NCBI GenBank assembly: GCA_945873195.1
Contig: CAMCDA010000003.1
Location: 1 to 64,000 of the forward strand
Direction of reading: 5' to 3'
Origin: Asaia bogorensis
GTDB lineage: Bacteria; Pseudomonadota; Alphaproteobacteria; Acetobacterales; Acetobacteraceae
DNA length: 64,000 bases
A program made the position numbers and the translations under genes. How positions within the stretch are numbered: the first letter of the stretch is position 1; every line of letters begins with the position of its first letter. The notes beneath the pieces were generated by a model, which was not told the origin of the DNA, did not search any database, and saw nothing but the letters and a program-made list of their open reading frames with translations. Of the stretch, positions 37,499 through 46,880 are shown one piece after another.

Positions 37499-38895
37499 CA
37501 GGCCGCTCCGGTGGTCGGGGAAGGAAGGGGTGTCAGGGCATTGATCGCGTCGACGATGGGCTTCATGCGGGTGCCGAGGCTGCCCTTCACGAGGATGACG
37601 TCGCCGGGGGCGAGGGTGGCCGCGACCATGTCGGCGAGGTCGGTCGAGACCTCGGCATGCGCGGCGCGGAGATCGGCGGGGATGGCGTCATGCAGGCCCG
37701 ACATCAGCGGGCCGCAGGTGAACACCAGGTCGGCGGAGGCAATCACATCCGGGGCGAGGCCGGTGTGTTCGGCTGGGCCTTCGTCACACAGTTCCCGCAT
37801 GTCGCCCAGCACGGCGATGCGCCGGGTCGCGGGTTGCAGGCGCAGGATTTCCAGCGCCGCGCGCATCGAGGCCGCGTTGCCGTTGTAGCTCTCGTCGAGC
37901 AGCAAGGCGGTGCCGCCGGCCACGGCGATCCGCCGGCGCGCGCCGCGACCCGGAAGGGACTCGAAGCCCCCGAGGGCCGTGGCGGCCTTTTCGATCACCG
38001 CGGACCCAGGGCCCGCCATAACCGTCAGCAGCGCCGCGAGCGCGTTCATCGCCATGTGCCGGCCCGGCGCGTTCAGGCGGAAGCGGACCAGCCGGCCTCC
38101 GATCTCGGCTTCAATCAGGGAGCCGTCGGCGTCCTGGTCCATGCCGATCAGGCGCGCGTCGGCCCCGACGGTTGCGCCGAAGGTCAGCACGCGATGGGCG
38201 CCGGCCGCGACGCGCAGGCGGGGAAACTGGGGGCTGTCGAGCGGCAGGATCGCGATGCCGCCGGGTTCGAGGCCGGTCAGGATGGAGGCTTTCTCGTCCG
38301 CGATCGCCTCGATGCCGCCCATATGGCCGACATGCGCCTTCTCGATCGCGGTGATCACCGCGATGTGCGGGCGGGCCAGGCGGGCGAGCGGCGCGATCTC
38401 GCCGGGGTGGTTCATGCCGATCTCGACCACGCAGAACCGGGAGTCGAGCGGCGCGCGGGCGAGCGTCAGCGGCAGGCCCCAATGGTTGTTGTAGGACGCG
38501 ACGGCGGCATGGGTCGGGCCGAAGGCGGACAGGATGGTCCGCAGCATCTCCTTCGTCGTGGTCTTGCCGACGCTGCCGGTGACGGCGATGACCGGGCCTT
38601 CGAACCGAGCGCGGGCGAACCCGCCCATGCGGGTCAGGGCCGCCAATGTGTCATCGACCAGCAGGACCCGATCGGCGCCGGGCACGGGGCGGTGGACCAT
38701 GGCGCCAGCCGAACCCTTGGCCAGGGCGTCGAGGACGAAGTCATGACCGTCGCGGCCCTCGCCCAACAGCGCGATGAACAGGTCGCCCGGTTGCAGCGTG
38801 CGGGTGTCGATCGAGACGCCGGTCGCGTCGAACGGCGTGGCGAAGTCGCCGCCGGTGGCCTCGGTCAGGTCGAAGGCGGTCCAGAGCTGGGTCAT
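37498..38895 (-). CDS. murF: UDP-MurNAc-tripeptide--D-alanyl-D-alanine ligase
   Basis: MurF adds the D-Ala-D-Ala dipeptide made by Ddl. The 465-residue protein has an N-terminal UDP-binding domain with [28 protein letters not shown] (in part), the ATP loop [15 protein letters not shown] at about residues 104-118, [15 protein letters not shown] and the C-terminal [18 protein letters not shown]. It overlaps murE by 4 bp. Its N-terminal domain resembles that of MurE next door, as is normal for the family. Confidence 0.96.
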
Positions 38896-40370
38896 CCCAC
38901 CCCCTCCGGCCCGGTCGCTTGAACCAGGGCGCGCACCGCGCCGACGTCGTCGAAGGGGATGACCGTGTCGCCGATGGTCTGACCTTGCTCGTGGCCCTTG
39001 CCGGCGACGGTGAGGACGTCGCCGGGGCGCAGCATCGACAGGGCGGCTTCGATCGCCTGGGCCCGGTCGCCGATTTCGATCGCGTCGGGGCAGGCGGCGC
39101 GGATTTCGGCGCGGATGGCGGCGGGGTCCTCGGACCGAGGGTTGTCGTCGGTGACGATCGCGACGTCGGCCAGGCGGATGGCGGCCGCGCCCATCAAGGG
39201 CCGCTTGCCGCGATCCCGGTCGCCGCCGGCGCCGAAGACGACCAGCAGCCGGCCCTCGGTATGCGGCCGCAGGGCCAGCAGCAGGCGTTCCAGCGCATCG
39301 GGTGTGTGCGCGTAGTCGACATAGACGGTCGCGCCGTTGGGCAGGATGGCCGCGCGTTCCATCCGGCCGCGCACGCCGGTCAGATGCGGCAGGCGGGACA
39401 GCGGGTCGGTATCGCCCATGGCTTCGGCCAAGGCGGCGGCGAGCAGCACGTTGTCGGCCTGGAACCGGCCGGGCAGCGGCAGGACGATGTCGCGGCGGAT
39501 GCCGGCGGCCTCGATGGTCAGGATCTGGCCGTCGGGGCGGGGGGTTGCCTGGATCAGGCGGTAGAAATCGCCACCCTCGCCCACGATCCGCAGGTCCAGG
39601 CCGCGTTCCCGGGCGATCCCGCGCAGGGCGGTCATCGTGTCGGTATCGACCCCGGCATGGACGATGGCTGGGGCGCCGGCGGGCAGCAGGGTGCGGAACA
39701 GGCGCAGCTTGGCGTGCCGGTAGGCCTCGATCGTGCCGTGGTAGTCGAGGTGATCGCGGGTCAGGTTGGTGAAGGCGGCGGCGGCGAGGGTCACGCCATC
39801 GAGGCGGAACTGGTCGAGCCCGTGCGACGATGCCTCCAGTGCCACGCGGCGGATGCCGGCGCGGGCGAGGCCGGCGAGGGATTCCGCGAGGCTGACCGGA
39901 TCCGGGGTGGTCAGGCCGGGTCCGGGATCGAAGCCGGGAGCGATCAGGCCCAGGGTGCCGAGGCTGGCGGCCCGCTGGCCGGCCAGTTCCGTCAGCTGTC
40001 GGACGAACTCCACCGTGCTGGTCTTGCCGTTGGTTCCGGTGACGGCGACCACCTGGTCCGGCTGCGGGCCGGCGAAGACGGCGGCGAGGCGGGCGAGGCT
40101 GCGGCGGGGCTCGACATCGACGATCATTGGCCGCCGGGGCACGCCATCGGGCCAGGGTGTGCCTGTGGGGGCCAGGATGGCGGCGGCGCCGCGCGCCACG
40201 GCGTCACCGATATAGCAGCGGCCATCGACCCGGTGGCCGGGCAGGGCCACGAACAGATCGCCGGGCGCGACCTGCCGGCTGTCGGCGGTGATCCCGGCGA
40301 TGTCCATCTCGGCGAGGGTTTGCCACGCCGCGCTGGGGGACATCTCGGTGATCGAGGCAAAATGCCGCAT
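38892..40370 (-). CDS. murE: UDP-MurNAc-L-Ala-D-Glu--meso-DAP ligase
   Basis: MurE adds the third residue of the stem peptide. The 492-residue protein has the N-terminal GITADSRQVAPGDLFVALPG, the ATP loop AVTGTNGKTSTVEFV and the C-terminal VTDDNPRSEDP. The DNPR motif predicts meso-diaminopimelate rather than lysine as substrate, as expected for a Gram-negative. ATG at 40370 begins 5 bp after the ftsI stop; a TTG at 40388 inside ftsI is the longer alternative. Confidence 0.96.
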   Translation of the reverse strand: MRHFASITEMSPSAAWQTLAEMDIAGITADSRQVAPGDLFVALPGHRVDGRCYIGDAVARGAAAILAPTGTPWPDGVPRRPMIVDVEPRRSLARLAAVFAGPQPDQVVAVTGTNGKTSTVEFVRQLTELAGQRAASLGTLGLIAPGFDPGPGLTTPDPVSLAESLAGLARAGIRRVALEASSHGLDQFRLDGVTLAAAAFTNLTRDHLDYHGTIEAYRHAKLRLFRTLLPAGAPAIVHAGVDTDTMTALRGIARERGLDLRIVGEGGDFYRLIQATPRPDGQILTIEAAGIRRDIVLPLPGRFQADNVLLAAALAEAMGDTDPLSRLPHLTGVRGRMERAAILPNGATVYVDYAHTPDALERLLLALRPHTEGRLLVVFGAGGDRDRGKRPLMGAAAIRLADVAIVTDDNPRSEDPAAIRAEIRAACPDAIEIGDRAQAIEAALSMLRPGDVLTVAGKGHEQGQTIGDTVIPFDDVGAVRALVQATGPEGVG

Positions 40371-40374
40371 GAGA

Positions 40375-42441
40375 TCAGCGCCCCGCAACGGAGGCGACCG
40401 CTGTCCCAGGCGCGGACGCCTGGGACGAGGCTGGCATGACCGCCGCCTGCTGGCGCGCTGGCTTGGCGGCCGGCGGGATCGTGGCGGGCGGCAATTGCGT
40501 GGGCGGCACGGTCAGGGTCGGCTTGACCGGCGTCTGGCCCGATGGGGGCCGGTCGGACGCTACGGCGGGGCCGCGTGGGGCATTGGTCGGGCGGCCGGGC
40601 TGGAGCGGCACGTGCAGCGATTGGTTGATCGCGGCGGCGTTCTGGATCTCCGGCATCATGCCGAGCATCGGGCCGATCCGGGAGATGACCTTGCCAGCGG
40701 CGGGAGCGGCGACCCAGCCGGCGGTGGCATAGCCGAAGGTGCTTTTGTTTCCCTTGGCCTCATCCAGCATCATGTAGACGGCATAGCGCGGGGCGTGCAT
40801 CGGGAAGACGCCCATGAAGGCGGCGACGTTGGCCTTGCGCTTGTAGCCGGCTTTGCTGGCCTTCTCGGCGGTGCCGGTCTTGCCGCCTGGGTAGTAGCCC
40901 GTGACCTCGGCGGTCTTGCCGAACCCATCGGTGACGATCAGGCGCATCAGCCGGCGCATCATGTCCGACGTGGCCTGCTGCATGACCCGCGTGCCCTCGG
41001 GCTGTTCGCCGGCCTGCACCGCCAGGATGGTTGGCGGGCGGACGATGCCGCCGTTGGCGATCGCGGCGGTGCCTTTGACCACATGCATGGGCGACACGGA
41101 GATACCGTGCCCGAAGCCCACGGTCAGGGTCGCGATTTCCTTCCAGTTCGCGGCGGCCTGCACCAGCGGGCGGGCGGCTTCCGGCAACTCGATGCCGACG
41201 CGGTTGAACATCCCCATCTCGCGCAGCCAGTTGCGCTGGCGTTCCGCGCCGACCAGCTTGGCGATCTGCGCCGCGCCGAGGTTGGAGGAATAGGCCAGCA
41301 CCTCGGGGAACATGAGGACGCGCTTCTTGCCCTCGAAGTCATTGATGGTGAAGCGGCCGATATGGATCGGGCGGGAGGCGTCGAAGCTGTCCCACAGCCG
41401 GACGGCGCCGTAATCCAGGGCCATCGAGGCGGTTTGCAGCTTGAACGTGCTGCCGGGTTCATAGATGCCGGTCAGCGGGCGGTTGAAGCGCTCATCGATC
41501 GTGGCCTTGCGGAAGTCATTGGCGTCGTAGTCGGGCAGGCTGACCATCGCCAGGACCTCGCCCGTGTTGACATCCATGACGATGCCGCAGGCGCCGATCG
41601 CCTCGAAGGTGGTCATCGCGGCCTGCAATTCTTCCCGCACGACGGCCTGGACGCGGATATCGACCGACAGGCGGAGTGGGGCGGTCTGTTCGCGCAGGCG
41701 CTTGTCGAACGCGGCCTCGGCCCCGGCGACGCCGCCTTCATCCACGTCCACGCCGCCCAGTATATGGGCCGCGGTGCGGCCGAGGGGGTAGTGGCGCTGC
41801 CCGGTGGGGCGGAAGTCGATGCCTGGCACGCCGAGGTTGTTGATCGCCAACTGCTCGCGAGGGGTGATCTGGCGTTCGAGGTAGACGAACTTCTTATCCG
41901 ATGACAGGCGCAGCAGGGCCCGTTCCTCATCGAGGCGGGGCAGGACGGATTTCAGTTTCCGCACGGCGTCGAGCGGGTCGATGATCTGGCGCGGGTCGGC
42001 GAAGACCGAGACGGTGTTCAGGGAGATCGCCATCGGTCGGCCGTTGCGATCGGTGATCATCGCGCGCTGGCCGGGGATGCTGGTTTCCAGGTCGCCCTTG
42101 GGCGCCGAGGCGGCGACGATCGCGGCGATCTGCTTTTCCGGCCGGTGGGGCGCCAGGGGCACGATGACGGTCGCGAGGCTCAGCTTCACGACGACGGCGC
42201 TGAACAGCACGGCGAAGGCGCTGGCGGCGAAGACCAGCCGGCCGCGGGTCTTTTCGAGGTATTTCCGCCGATCCAGGTCGGGTTGGGTAACGTGGACGGT
42301 CTCGATATGCGGGCGGCTGTCGGCCATCGCCGCGCCCAGGCGCCGCTTCGGCCGGCCTGCCTTGCCGTTGTTGAGCGGGGGCGAGTCGGGCGGTGGTGAA
42401 CCGGGGGGGGGCGAACCGGTGGGGGGGATGTGATCGGTCAT
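40375..42441 (-). CDS. ftsI: Peptidoglycan DD-transpeptidase FtsI (PBP3)
   Basis: FtsI crosslinks septal peptidoglycan in complex with FtsW. The 688-residue protein has a Pro-rich cytoplasmic N-terminus and one membrane helix (LVFAASAFAVLFSAVVVKL, about residues 69-87). A dimerisation domain and then a transpeptidase domain follow, with the catalytic STFK (in EPGSTFKLQTASM), YSSN and GKTGTAEK boxes. The C-terminus is a Pro/Ala-rich extension of about 100 residues. Codons 5-20 include C-tracts of seven and nine bases (on the coding strand), prone to slippage. It follows ftsL by 3 bp. Confidence 0.96.
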   Translation of the reverse strand: MTDHIPPTGSPPPGSPPPDSPPLNNGKAGRPKRRLGAAMADSRPHIETVHVTQPDLDRRKYLEKTRGRLVFAASAFAVLFSAVVVKLSLATVIVPLAPHRPEKQIAAIVAASAPKGDLETSIPGQRAMITDRNGRPMAISLNTVSVFADPRQIIDPLDAVRKLKSVLPRLDEERALLRLSSDKKFVYLERQITPREQLAINNLGVPGIDFRPTGQRHYPLGRTAAHILGGVDVDEGGVAGAEAAFDKRLREQTAPLRLSVDIRVQAVVREELQAAMTTFEAIGACGIVMDVNTGEVLAMVSLPDYDANDFRKATIDERFNRPLTGIYEPGSTFKLQTASMALDYGAVRLWDSFDASRPIHIGRFTINDFEGKKRVLMFPEVLAYSSNLGAAQIAKLVGAERQRNWLREMGMFNRVGIELPEAARPLVQAAANWKEIATLTVGFGHGISVSPMHVVKGTAAIANGGIVRPPTILAVQAGEQPEGTRVMQQATSDMMRRLMRLIVTDGFGKTAEVTGYYPGGKTGTAEKASKAGYKRKANVAAFMGVFPMHAPRYAVYMMLDEAKGNKSTFGYATAGWVAAPAAGKVISRIGPMLGMMPEIQNAAAINQSLHVPLQPGRPTNAPRGPAVASDRPPSGQTPVKPTLTVPPTQLPPATIPPAAKPARQQAAVMPASSQASAPGTAVASVAGR

Positions 42442-42444
42442 GGC

Positions 42445-43512
42445 TCAACCGCCTCCGTCATGCGCTGGGGCGGAGAAGGGGGTCGGCCGGGGCAACGGGA
42501 CGGGCGCGCCGCGCTGGGCGCCGCCGAGCATTGAGCCGCTGCTCGTGGCGCTCAGGGGGGCGCTCAGGGGGGCGCCCAGGGGGGCGCCCAGGGGCGCGGA
42601 GACAGGCTGGTAGGCGTTGGGTTGCGCGGGCTGCGGGCGGGTGGTGGGCGCGATATAGGGGCGGGGCGCGGGTTGCGCGCTGGCCTGCACCATGGGGGCG
42701 CCGGCGCCCTGCGCCATGGGCGTGCCGGCGCCAGGGGCAACGGGGCGCGGCGGCGGGGTTTGCGGCGAAGCGGCTGCTTGCAGCGGCGGTCTTGGCGCGG
42801 ATGCGACGCGAGTCTCGGTTGGCCTGGTCTCGTTGGTCCGCGTTTCGGCGGGACGCACCTCGGCGGGACGGGGGGCGGGGCGTGGGTCGGCCTGGGCTTG
42901 CAGCGGCGGACGGATCGCCGGTGCTTCGGGACGGGGTGCTTCGGGGCGCGGGGCGGCCATCTGGGTGGGCGGCGCGGGCTGGGCGGACGGCGCGGGACGG
43001 GGCGTGGTGGCGGCGATCGCGCCGGCGGCCGTGGCCGGCTGGGCGGCGAAGGCCGGCGGCGGCACCATTTGGGGCGGCAGCGGCAGCACTTCCTCGGCGA
43101 CGATCACCGGGGCCGGCTCCTCGGTGGCGCGGGGTTCGGCCGATGTAACGTCGGTGACGGGCTGGCCCATCAGGGGGGAGCCGCCGGCGGGGGCCTGGAT
43201 GGGGGCGGGTTCCGGTTCGGGCGCGCGGGGGGCCGGCAGCCGGCCGGCGAGGTCGGCCATCGTCGTGAACTGCGGCGGCGCCAGGGGCTTCAGGGCCAAA
43301 TAGCGGTCGGCGAACTGGCGCAGGCGCTCGGGGTCGTTCAGCAGGGTCCATTCGGCGTGCAGCAGGCGTGTGTGATCGGTGATTGTTGTGGTATCGCGCG
43401 CGATCTTCTCGATCCGGCGGTCCAGCATCAGGACCGCGTTCTTCGCGTAGTACATATAGATGCCCGACAGAATGGCCATCAGCGCGGTGATCAGGGTGAT
43501 CGGACGGATCAT
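42445..43512 (-). CDS. ftsL: Cell division protein FtsL with long Pro-rich extension
   Basis: FtsL is a small bitopic divisome protein that activates FtsWI. The first 75 residues look normal: a transmembrane helix ([19 protein letters not shown], about residues 5-23), a coiled coil and the segment [23 protein letters not shown]. The remaining 270 residues are a Pro/Ala/Arg-rich, probably disordered extension, including a repeated APLG/APLS tetrapeptide encoded by a 12-bp tandem repeat. Typical FtsL is 90-130 residues, so the extension is unusual. It overlaps rsmH by 4 bp. Confidence 0.88.
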
Positions 43513-44462
43513 CGGTTGCCCCCTTCCTCGGCGGGCGCTTGCAGGCGTTCCAGCGCGCGCAAACGGGCGCTGCGGGCGCGCGGATTGGCGGCGGTTTCGG
43601 CCGAGGTCGGGCGCAGGGCCTTCGACGTCAGCAACCGGAAGTCGGCGCGCGGGCGGGTCATCAGGCCGCGCGGATCGTGGCGGGACGGGGCGGGCATGCG
43701 GCCAGCGGCCTCGACCATGAAGCGCTTGACGATGCGGTCTTCCAGGCTGTGGAAGGACACGACGACCAGGCGTCCGCCGGGGGCAAGCAGGCGGGTGGCC
43801 TGGTCCAGGGCGCGTTCGATTTCCCCCAGCTCGTCGTTCACCTTGATCCGCAGCGCCTGGAAGCTGCGGGTGGCGGGATCGTTGCCCGAGGCGTCGCGCG
43901 GCAGGACGGAGCGGATGATGGAGCCGAGGCGGCCGGTCGTCTCGATCGGCGCGACGGCGCGTTCGGCGACGATGGCCTTGGCGATCCGGCGGGAGGCGCG
44001 TTCCTCCCCCAGGGTATAGAGAATGTCCGCCAGCGCCGCTTCCGGGGTCGTGTTCACCAGATCAGCGGCCGTCATCCCATGGTGTCCCATGCGCATGTCG
44101 AGCGGCCCATCGAGCCGGAAGGAGAAGCCGCGGGCCGGATCGTCGATCTGGTAGGACGATACGCCGAGGTCGAGCACCACGCCGTCGAGGGTGGAAACCC
44201 CCGCATCGGTCAGCAGCGTCAGCATGTCGCCGAAGCAGCCTTGCACCAGATGCAGCCGGCCGGGATGGCGGGCGGCGAGGCTGGCGCCGCGCGCGATGGC
44301 CGCCGGGTCACGGTCGATCGCCCAGACGGTGCAATCGGCGTGCTCCAGGATCGCGGCCGAGTAGCCGCCGCCGCCGAAGGTGCCATCAAGATAGACTCCG
44401 CCGGCGCGCGGATTGAGCTGTTCCAGCGCCTCGGCCGGCATGACGGAGATATGGCCGCTCAT
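43509..44462 (-). CDS. rsmH: 16S rRNA (cytosine-1402-N4)-methyltransferase RsmH
   Basis: RsmH (MraW) methylates C1402 in the ribosomal P site using SAM. The 317-residue protein has [19 protein letters not shown] at the N-terminus, the SAM motif [35 protein letters not shown] with the DMRMG segment, and the C-terminal [15 protein letters not shown]. Overlaps of 4 bp with mraZ and with ftsL show tight coupling at the head of the dcw operon. Confidence 0.97.
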
Positions 44463-44935
44463 GCCGCCACCTTGGCGCGCAGGGCGGCCTGCTGGTCGCG
44501 GACGCGCTGGCGGGCCTGTTCCTGGCGGGCCGCGGCGGCGCCGGGTTCCCAGATCTGGAAGCGGGAGCCGATGCCCATGAAGGCGATCGGGCCGGTGATG
44601 CCGGCGTGCTTCAGCAGGTCGTCGGACAGGACGACGCGGCCTTCCTTGTCGCTTTCCACCGGATAGGCGTTGGCGAATAGCGTGGTCGCGAGGTCTTCAT
44701 GTTCCTCGCTGATTTCGTTGAATTGTTCGAGTTCGGTGGTCAGCGCGTGGAACGCATTGACCGGCCAGGCCTCGATGCACGCATACTGGTGGGAAGGGCG
44801 GAGGACGAGGGCGACCTCGAGGTCGCCATTGTCATGTTCCCGCAACGACCGGAGGGCGGCGCGAAATGGGGCCGGGACCGATACACGTCCCTTGGAATCC
44901 AGCTTCGATTGGTGGGTTCCAAGAAATTGGGCCAT
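44459..44935 (-). CDS. mraZ: Division/cell wall cluster transcriptional repressor MraZ
   Basis: MraZ is a ring-forming AbrB-like DNA-binding protein that represses its own operon. The 158-residue protein has two tandem SpoVT-AbrB repeats, each with the DxKGR-type core: [14 protein letters not shown] near the N-terminus and [14 protein letters not shown] in the second half. It is the first gene of the dcw cluster. A putative operator of four TGGG boxes lies about 140-170 bp upstream, over the likely -10 region, which fits autorepression. Confidence 0.95.
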
Positions 44936-45073
44936 CCGGACCGGTCCGCCTCTTCCCTTGTCCGACGTTCACATGAAGGGCGGATTGCAGCCTTGCCGGC
45001 GATGGGTGCGAACAGTCCGCCCGCGAGATTCGACCCGATCGATCCGTCAGGGCATGCGCGAGGGTGCTGTGCA

Positions 45074-45124
45074 TGGGTTCCCGTGGGACAATTTGGGATA
45101 CCATGGGGAAAGCTGGTCCGTCAA
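45074..45124 (-). promoter_or_regulatory. dcw promoter with four-box MraZ-type operator
   Basis: TGGG occurs at 45074, 45084, 45094 and 45104 (plus strand), exactly 10 bp apart, the spacing known for MraZ boxes. On the minus strand a sigma-70-like promoter reads TTGACG (45124-45119), 18 bp, TATCCC (45100-45095). The array therefore covers the -10 and start region of mraZ transcription, leaving a leader of about 150 nt. Confidence 0.7.
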
Positions 45125-45282: not shown

Positions 45283-45305
45283 CATAGCACAATCGGGGCG
45301 CTAGC

Positions 45306-45705
45306 GTCAGGTGGCCTGTAAGCCGGGTTCTGTCCCGCCTTGCGGCGGGGACGGCCATTCCTCTGGGACCTGCCTCGCGGCAGGCCTCACGCGACCGACC
45401 CGGACGGAGAGCGGGAATGCCCTTGTACCTCGAGGGTACACCGTCCCTATGTGGTCTTGCTCCCGGTGGGGTTTACCCTGCCGCCCCTGTTGCCAGGGGC
45501 GCGGTGCGCTCTTGCCGCACCGTTTCGCCCTTGCCCGCGGGGTGACGCGACCTTGCGCGGGCGGTTTGTTTTCTGTGGCACTGTCCCTGGGGTTGCCCCC
45601 GCCGGCCGTTAGCCGGCACCGTATTCCCGTGGAGCCCGGACTTTCCTCCATCCCCGGGTGATCCTTGCGGAAGGCCCGAGGACAGCGGCCGCCCAGCCAC
45701 CTGAC
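45306..45705 (-). ncRNA. rnpB: RNase P RNA, bacterial class A
   Basis: The catalytic RNA of RNase P, which trims tRNA 5' ends. On the minus strand the 5' part reads GAGGAAAGTCCGGGCTCC (conserved CR I) and the 3' part reads ACAGAACCCGGCTTACAGG (conserved CR V). The ends pair as helix P1: GTCAGGTGGC at the 5' end (45705-45696) with GCCACCTGAC at the 3' end (45315-45306). The length of about 400 nt suits type A. Ends are set by the P1 helix and may be off by a few bases. Confidence 0.93.
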
Positions 45706-45839: not shown

Positions 45840-46880
45840 ATGCGCCTCGGCATTACCGTCGATATGTCCGGCCCACATCCCAAACTCGACATGGACCGCG
45901 TGATGGAGGCCGAACGACTCGGCTTCTCCCAGGTCTGGACCGGAGAGGCGTACAGCACCGACGCTGTCTCCCCCGTCGCCTGGATCCTGGCGCGGACCAC
46001 GAAGATCCACGCTGGCACGGGCATCATGCAGATGCCGGCCCGCACCCCGGCCTGCGCGGCGATGACCGTCCTCTCGCTCCAGGCTTTGTCCGGCAACCGC
46101 TTCATCTGCGGCGTCGGCGCCTCTGGCCCGCAGGTGGTCGAGGGCTGGCACGGCGTGCCCTTCGGCAAGCCGATGACCCGCACCAAGGAATACATCGCGA
46201 TCATCAAGCAGGTGCTGGCGCGCGAAAAGCCGCTGGAATTCCATGGCGAGATCTATGACATCCCGCTGACGGGCCCCACCGCCTCGGGCCTCGGCCGGCC
46301 GCTGCGCTCGATCGCGCATGGCAATCCGGACGTGCGTTTCTTTACCGCGTCGATCACGCCGGCCGGCCTGCGCAACTCCGGTGAGGTCGCGGACGGCAAT
46401 TTGCCGATCTTCTATTCCCCGGAACGGCCCGAGATCGTGACGGTGCCGACGATCGAGGGGCGCGTGAAGGCCGGCCGTCCCGCCGACCTGTCCAACTACG
46501 ACGTCGCCCCCTATGTCCGCGCCAAGCTGGGGCCGGACGTGCAGGCCTGCCGCGATGCCATCAAGCCGGAACTTGCCCTATACATTGGTGGCATGGGCGC
46601 GCGGAAGAAGAACTACTACAACGACGTCGCCGTGAAGATGGGCTACGAGGGCGAGGCGAAGGCGATCCAGGACCTGTACCTGGATGGCAAGCGCAACGAA
46701 GCCGCCGCCCTGGTGCCCGACGCCCTGGTGGATGAGATTTCGCTGTGCGGCCCCGCCGACCGGATCAAGGACCGGCTGGGCGCCTGGCGGGATGCCGCCA
46801 AGGCCGGCCATATCGGCACGATGGTGCTCAAGGGTGCCAGCGTGGACGCGATGCGCGTGGTCGCCGAGGCGGTGCTGTAA
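45840..46880 (+). CDS. LLM-class flavin/F420-dependent oxidoreductase
   Basis: A 346-residue luciferase-like monooxygenase-family TIM barrel. Key segments are AERLGFSQVWTGEAYSTDAV, TTKIHAGTGIMQMPARTPACAAM, FICGVGASGPQVVEGWHGVPFGKP and TRTKEYIAIIKQVL; the C-terminus has SLCGPADRIKDRLGAW. It belongs with F420-type reductases of the TIGR03559/Mer group rather than true luciferases. AGGAGGAAA precedes the ATG. It has its own hairpin after the stop, so its link to the downstream phosphonate transporter genes is uncertain. The substrate is unknown. Confidence 0.88.
   Translation: MRLGITVDMSGPHPKLDMDRVMEAERLGFSQVWTGEAYSTDAVSPVAWILARTTKIHAGTGIMQMPARTPACAAMTVLSLQALSGNRFICGVGASGPQVVEGWHGVPFGKPMTRTKEYIAIIKQVLAREKPLEFHGEIYDIPLTGPTASGLGRPLRSIAHGNPDVRFFTASITPAGLRNSGEVADGNLPIFYSPERPEIVTVPTIEGRVKAGRPADLSNYDVAPYVRAKLGPDVQACRDAIKPELALYIGGMGARKKNYYNDVAVKMGYEGEAKAIQDLYLDGKRNEAAALVPDALVDEISLCGPADRIKDRLGAWRDAAKAGHIGTMVLKGASVDAMRVVAEAVL

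Follow-up and report, generated by a model that had tools for sequence, protein, structure and literature searches.

The TGGG boxes that overlie the mraZ promoter in the window, by which we mean the whole 64-kb stretch of DNA analysed here, most probably (probability about 0.85) form an operator for MraZ, reversed in polarity and interleaved with the promoter, at which MraZ would repress its own transcription by occlusion; both binding and its sign are predictions. The argument starts from features seen directly in the genomes compared: the array, its phasing, its overlap with the promoter, its conservation and its dependence on the presence of mraZ. The parts of the original prediction of a MraZ operator at the dcw promoter that are open to a sequence test hold, and the operator stands as a predicted one.

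Results

TGGG occurs on the (+) strand at 45074, 45084, 45094 and 45104, and direct reading of the letters bears out both the four coordinates and the exact 10-bp steps originally reported. The boxes read TGGGTTCCCG (45074), TGGGACAATT (45084), TGGGATACCA (45094) and TGGGGAAAGC (45104), the bases ahead of TGGG being A, G, T and A, and a degenerate fifth box, TGGT, stands in register at 45114 (TGGTCCGTCA). TGGG/GTG direct repeats with the 10-bp period of MraZ operators are present in the window. In a stretch of 67% GC, two TGGG boxes 10 bp apart are frequent and not significant by themselves (6 seen, 4.0 expected). The run of four is unique within the 64 kb; base composition predicts ~1.5e-9 such runs per site, ~0.016 per whole genome and ~1e-6 when 400 bp are read on both strands. 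Three-box runs were found in the genome sequence searched only as two overlapping runs at the array and at one unrelated place.

The array sits at the promoter that directly precedes mraZ (44459–44935, (–) strand, ATG at 44935). The encoded protein of 158 aa contains both DxxGR motifs, scored 170.3 bits against NCBIfam NF001477 (cut-off 162), passed Pfam PF02381 and reached 69.1 against TIGR00242, below the cut-off of 98.35; judged by these family profiles, the gene downstream of the array is a genuine mraZ. Solved MraZ structures similar to the window protein are 1n0e and the recent entries 9qlr, 9qlg and 9sx6. On the same strand follow rsmH (mraW; 43509–44462), gene two of the dcw cluster, a 355-aa ORF at 42445–43512 placed at ftsL by position only and having no Pfam match, an ftsI-type transpeptidase gene (40375–42441) and murE (38892–40388), with rsmH, the ftsI-type gene and murE assigned by family profiles; this is the gene order of the dcw cluster. 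The ORF at the ftsL position is rich in proline and alanine and far longer than usual FtsL. An RNase P class A RNA gene (45303–45704, (–)) lies directly upstream of mraZ on the same strand, an arrangement that Woeseia and many loci of the class share. A luciferase-like monooxygenase gene (PF00296) lies at 45840–46880 (+), and the ORFs after it resemble a substrate-binding ABC transporter.

The (–)-strand promoter, TTGACG-N18-TATCCC as first described, is interleaved with the boxes ~160 bp before mraZ and is conserved across the class. Its -35 element, TTGACG, occupies 45119–45124, with TTGAC in register across the class, and its conserved -10 element, TATCCC, occupies 45095–45100 and overlaps box 2. 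One base ahead of the -10 stands the conserved TG of an extended -10 (TGnTATCCC; 45103–45102, (–)), a feature absent from the original description. Counting 12 nt from the 5' base of the -10 puts the predicted transcription start at 45088 (–), which with the mraZ ATG at 44935 gives a predicted 5' leader of ~153 nt (44936–45087, (–)). Box 1 (45104–45107, (+); CCCA on the mraZ strand) falls in the -35/-10 spacer; the GGG of box 2 (45094–45097, (+)) supplies the CCC of the TATCCC hexamer; box 3 (45084–45087, (+)) falls at the predicted start site; box 4 (45074–45077, (+)) falls at the start of the predicted transcribed leader; and degenerate box 5 (45114–45117, (+)) lies beside the -35. Together the boxes span about -19 (or -29 with the weak fifth) to +14 on the strand opposite mraZ. 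A generic promoter scan of the window did not detect the TTGACG-N18-TATCCC promoter, because TATCCC is without the final T that the scan demands; what supports the promoter is hence its conservation, not a consensus match.

Relatives, the class of the window's genome (Alphaproteobacteria throughout this text) and other classes of the phylum supplied the mraZ upstream regions for comparison. The gene was located by an iterated profile, and the best four-box run at 10-bp period was scored on each strand of 420 bp (maximum 16; threshold at least 13, reached by at most 0.5% of shuffles). The nearest named MraZ loci were mostly from Acetobacteraceae, Inquilinus, Magnetospira and Paracoccaceae; one of the loci, titled 'Mycobacterium sp. 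KBS0706' (L008), is nearly identical to the mraZ locus of Inquilinus limosus and is probably misnamed. The 88 alphaproteobacterial regions represent ~40 families, ~30 of them being non-independent regions from the window's own genus. Scores of at least 13 were found on the antisense strand in 75/88 regions and on the sense strand in 0/88; with eight short or misplaced regions taken at full length, the antisense count was 80/88, and three sense scores reached 13. In ~10% of class members the arrays were weak or unrecognised. Spacings between CCCA boxes peaked at 10, 20 and 30 bp (170, 109 and 59 pairs), with mostly 1–3 pairs at neighbouring spacings. Column conservation in the class was 0.87–1.0 for box 1, 0.94–1.0 for box 2 and 0.76–0.87 for box 3; the columns equivalent to box 5 are CCCA in 59–87%, and the position of box 4 varies. 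The comparison with relatives that had been proposed as a check thus found the 10-bp array conserved across the class, and we conclude that it is probably a class-wide operator, putatively bound by MraZ.

Outside the class, the mraZ strand scored higher in all 40 regions (37 genomes, including E. coli K-12), and 28 of the 40 reached at least 13 on that strand. The suggestion that TGGG reads on the strand opposite mraZ, unlike the enterobacterial layout, is borne out by these counts (antisense in 80/88, sense in 40/40). The other-class set contains 30 loci chosen by best MraZ score and 8 chosen by a three-box match near mraZ, strand ignored; since all 30 of the former are sense, the polarity is not a selection effect. 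The base before TGGG also differs: among 179 boxes from alphaproteobacterial pairs it is A in 150, and among 39 boxes from other classes it is G in 35. One apparent exception to the antisense rule, sense three-box matches 611 bp upstream of mraZ in genome G056, was dismissed because that locus (L065) also has a degenerate antisense array where one is expected. Six further arrays in relatives (L124, L125, L126, L127, L128 and L129) were rejected as extra targets because no MraZ gene lies within the ~1 kb fetched and the ORFs suggest that most are coding. Among these, L125 (genome G318, which is without MraZ) is a six-copy TGGGATATAA tandem repeat inside an ORF and looks unrelated.

The alphaproteobacterial arrays share a core, CCCATGnTATCCCA on the mraZ strand, that contains the -10 and the extended TG. 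Alignment anchored on this core gave the class consensus TTGACgcCCAT..aaTCCCATGnTATCCCATg..atCCCA (mraZ strand), and because of the anchoring the analysis was repeated without it. Unanchored, 56 loci had three or more exact CCCA boxes, and in 46 of them exactly one spacer read TGnTAT. Where the core is exact, TTGAC stood 17–18 bp upstream in 40/53 loci, against 6/1855 at other offsets; thus one inter-box spacer doubles as the extended -10, with the -35 in register. In a phylum sample of 398 genomes the core TGGGATAnCATGGG occurred in 55 alphaproteobacterial and 8 other genomes, and its backward control occurred in 0 alphaproteobacterial genomes.

The presence of the array tracks that of mraZ. 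The rsmH locus was examined in 26 alphaproteobacterial genomes without a Pfam MraZ match. At 20 of these loci there was no MraZ-like ORF, and none of the 20 had an antisense array scoring at least 13. At one locus a MraZ ORF turned up beside rsmH, accompanied by an array scoring 15/16. The remaining five, all of one family (f13; L155, L158, L162, L163 and L165), have a divergent MraZ-like ORF below Pfam detection, and three of the five have degenerate CCC-only runs of 10-bp period, possibly reflecting a changed box specificity. The array therefore follows the gene. Complete alphaproteobacterial genomes with neither a recognisable mraZ beside rsmH nor the array include G097, G272, G278, G301 and G345, and the same state was seen in G364, G368, G372, G375 and others.

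Eraso et al. in 2014 reportedly located the E. coli MraZ operator at Pmra. Likeness to that site is clear in the 10-bp-period TGGG boxes just before mraZ, with mraZ heading dcw. In E. coli K-12 the boxes lie on the mraZ strand (AGTGGGAAATTGTGGGGCAAAGTGGGAATAAGGGG, read from NC_000913.3), as three good GTGGG boxes and one weak one. The E. coli mraZ leader is 38 nt (as cited in PMC5089854), which places the boxes at about -5 to +29, compared with about -29 to +14 on the opposite strand in the window. Burkholderia cenocepacia MraZ binds four repeats of 10-bp spacing that overlap the dcw start site, as in the window; they had been searched for as repeats of GTG and, like the E. coli boxes, are located downstream of the -10 (PMC7761207). 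The original prediction had also counted four boxes as a possible departure from the enterobacterial layout, and this part fails, given three boxes and a weak one in E. coli and four in B. cenocepacia (PMC7761207). The E. coli/Burkholderia layout of mraZ-strand boxes downstream of the -10 was not found in the window, nor was a consistent G before TGGG: the class has mostly A (ATGGG, where E. coli has GTGGG), and the window A, G, T and A. Read from these layouts, the true differences are polarity, position relative to the -10 and -35, and the base before TGGG. In Mollicutes, a direct-repeat series at the mraZ promoter is again found, with the MraZ box AAAGTG[T/G] (Fisunov et al. 2016, as cited in PMC8475190); its core is GTG, in contrast to ATGGG in Alphaproteobacteria.

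Four genomes of one family (f23), taken as Rhodobacteraceae-like because their leaders resemble that of R. sphaeroides, have a long mraZ leader with a strong terminator-like hairpin; the leader sequence is common to a named Paracoccaceae MAG (L012). By the 12-nt rule used for the window, their leaders are predicted to be 263, 266, 295 and 303 nt long, and the distance from predicted start to hairpin end is 215–220 nt. In R. sphaeroides the mraZ leader was measured as 268 nt and the sRNA UpsM as 206 nt (PMC5089854), and the start mapped there for the dcw/UpsM transcript matches the predicted promoter position. That promoter is an alphaproteobacterial dcw promoter with a mapped start, and it differs in its long attenuated leader, which produces UpsM (PMC5089854). 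An Rfam search of the Rhodobacteraceae-like loci returned no known leader RNA. What looks like a degenerate MraZ array, antisense to mraZ, is present at the UpsM-type promoters of L065, L121, L122, L123 and L012. The abundant sRNA UpsM may itself be under MraZ control; MraZ boxes or an array at the UpsM promoter were not found in the text of PMC5089854.

Discussion

MraZ binding, ring polarity and repression are what we infer from the layout of the array, by the following mechanism. A MraZ ring would lie on one face of the DNA, along which the boxes recur one helical turn (10 bp) apart, and would occupy about -29 to +14, covering the spacer, the -10 and the start site. Bound MraZ would then block RNA polymerase at the dcw promoter and so exert negative feedback. 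Relative to its placement in E. coli and related bacteria, the complex would be reversed in polarity and sit ~20 bp further upstream.

Repression as the sign of this control is the main doubt, because MraZ of Neisseria elongata acts as an activator: there, dcw transcription falls when mraZ is deleted and rises when it is overexpressed (PMC9395523). The same operator might likewise serve activation in Alphaproteobacteria, with MraZ aiding polymerase at the weak -10, and TATCCC is indeed a poor -10. We consider this unlikely, since the boxes overlie the -10 and the start, where a bound protein normally excludes polymerase, and since repression of dcw by MraZ has been reported in both E. coli and M. 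genitalium (PMC8475190). A little less likely again is that alphaproteobacterial MraZ reads CCCAT on the sense strand in an E. coli-like physical orientation, its base recognition having changed and its polarity having been kept. Such a change would fit the different base before TGGG (A versus G) and the different residues that classes show beside the DxKGR motif. However, TGGG and the 10-bp period are shared between the two groups, and a half-site that was kept and turned is the simpler explanation.

The remaining alternatives do without MraZ. GGG-N7 repeated four times fits the usual G-quadruplex motif, and in S. aureus a G-quadruplex of the mraZ promoter reportedly reduces expression of dcw (PMC11796246), so that the array might act as such a structure, or else be bound by another regulator. 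The G-quadruplex pattern (four G3 tracts, loops of 1–7) is present in the window and in 47 of the 88 regions of the class. It is thus found in only about half of the alphaproteobacterial promoters and in few others, whereas the box register is found in nearly all, and the disappearance of the array together with mraZ argues against both a G-quadruplex and another regulator; we regard either as improbable. Least credible is that high GC content alone produced the TGGG run by chance: TGGG pairs spaced 10 bp are frequent in the window, but a four-box run is expected 0.016 times per genome, and conservation of the array across ~40 families already refutes a chance origin.

For the reversed, promoter-interleaved MraZ operator that we favour, an evolutionary origin can be sketched, at somewhat less than even odds. 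The ancestor of Alphaproteobacteria would have acquired an inverted operator merged with the -10 of the dcw promoter, on which the MraZ ring docks in reverse, directly over -35 to +1. This would have fixed occlusion of initiation, as opposed to a block at or downstream of the start site, with matching changes in MraZ, and would have brought UpsM under MraZ in Rhodobacteraceae. Both DxxGR motifs are kept in alphaproteobacterial and other-class MraZ, and nearby residues differ (K11 vs N11 and S19 vs A/S, window numbering); these differences may be tied to the changed box.

MraZ operators as such were already known. In the mainly open-access literature searched, we found no account of an inverted, promoter-interleaved, class-wide operator of the ATGGG type. 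In practice, the motif CCCATGnTATCCCA with TTGAC 17–18 bp upstream finds the alphaproteobacterial dcw promoter without RNA data. Few features of bacterial genomes are as conserved as MraZ and the dcw cluster, yet reports differ on the role of MraZ. Two large classes in which the operator differs in polarity and position would make it possible to ask if MraZ owes its effect to the direction and site in which it binds.
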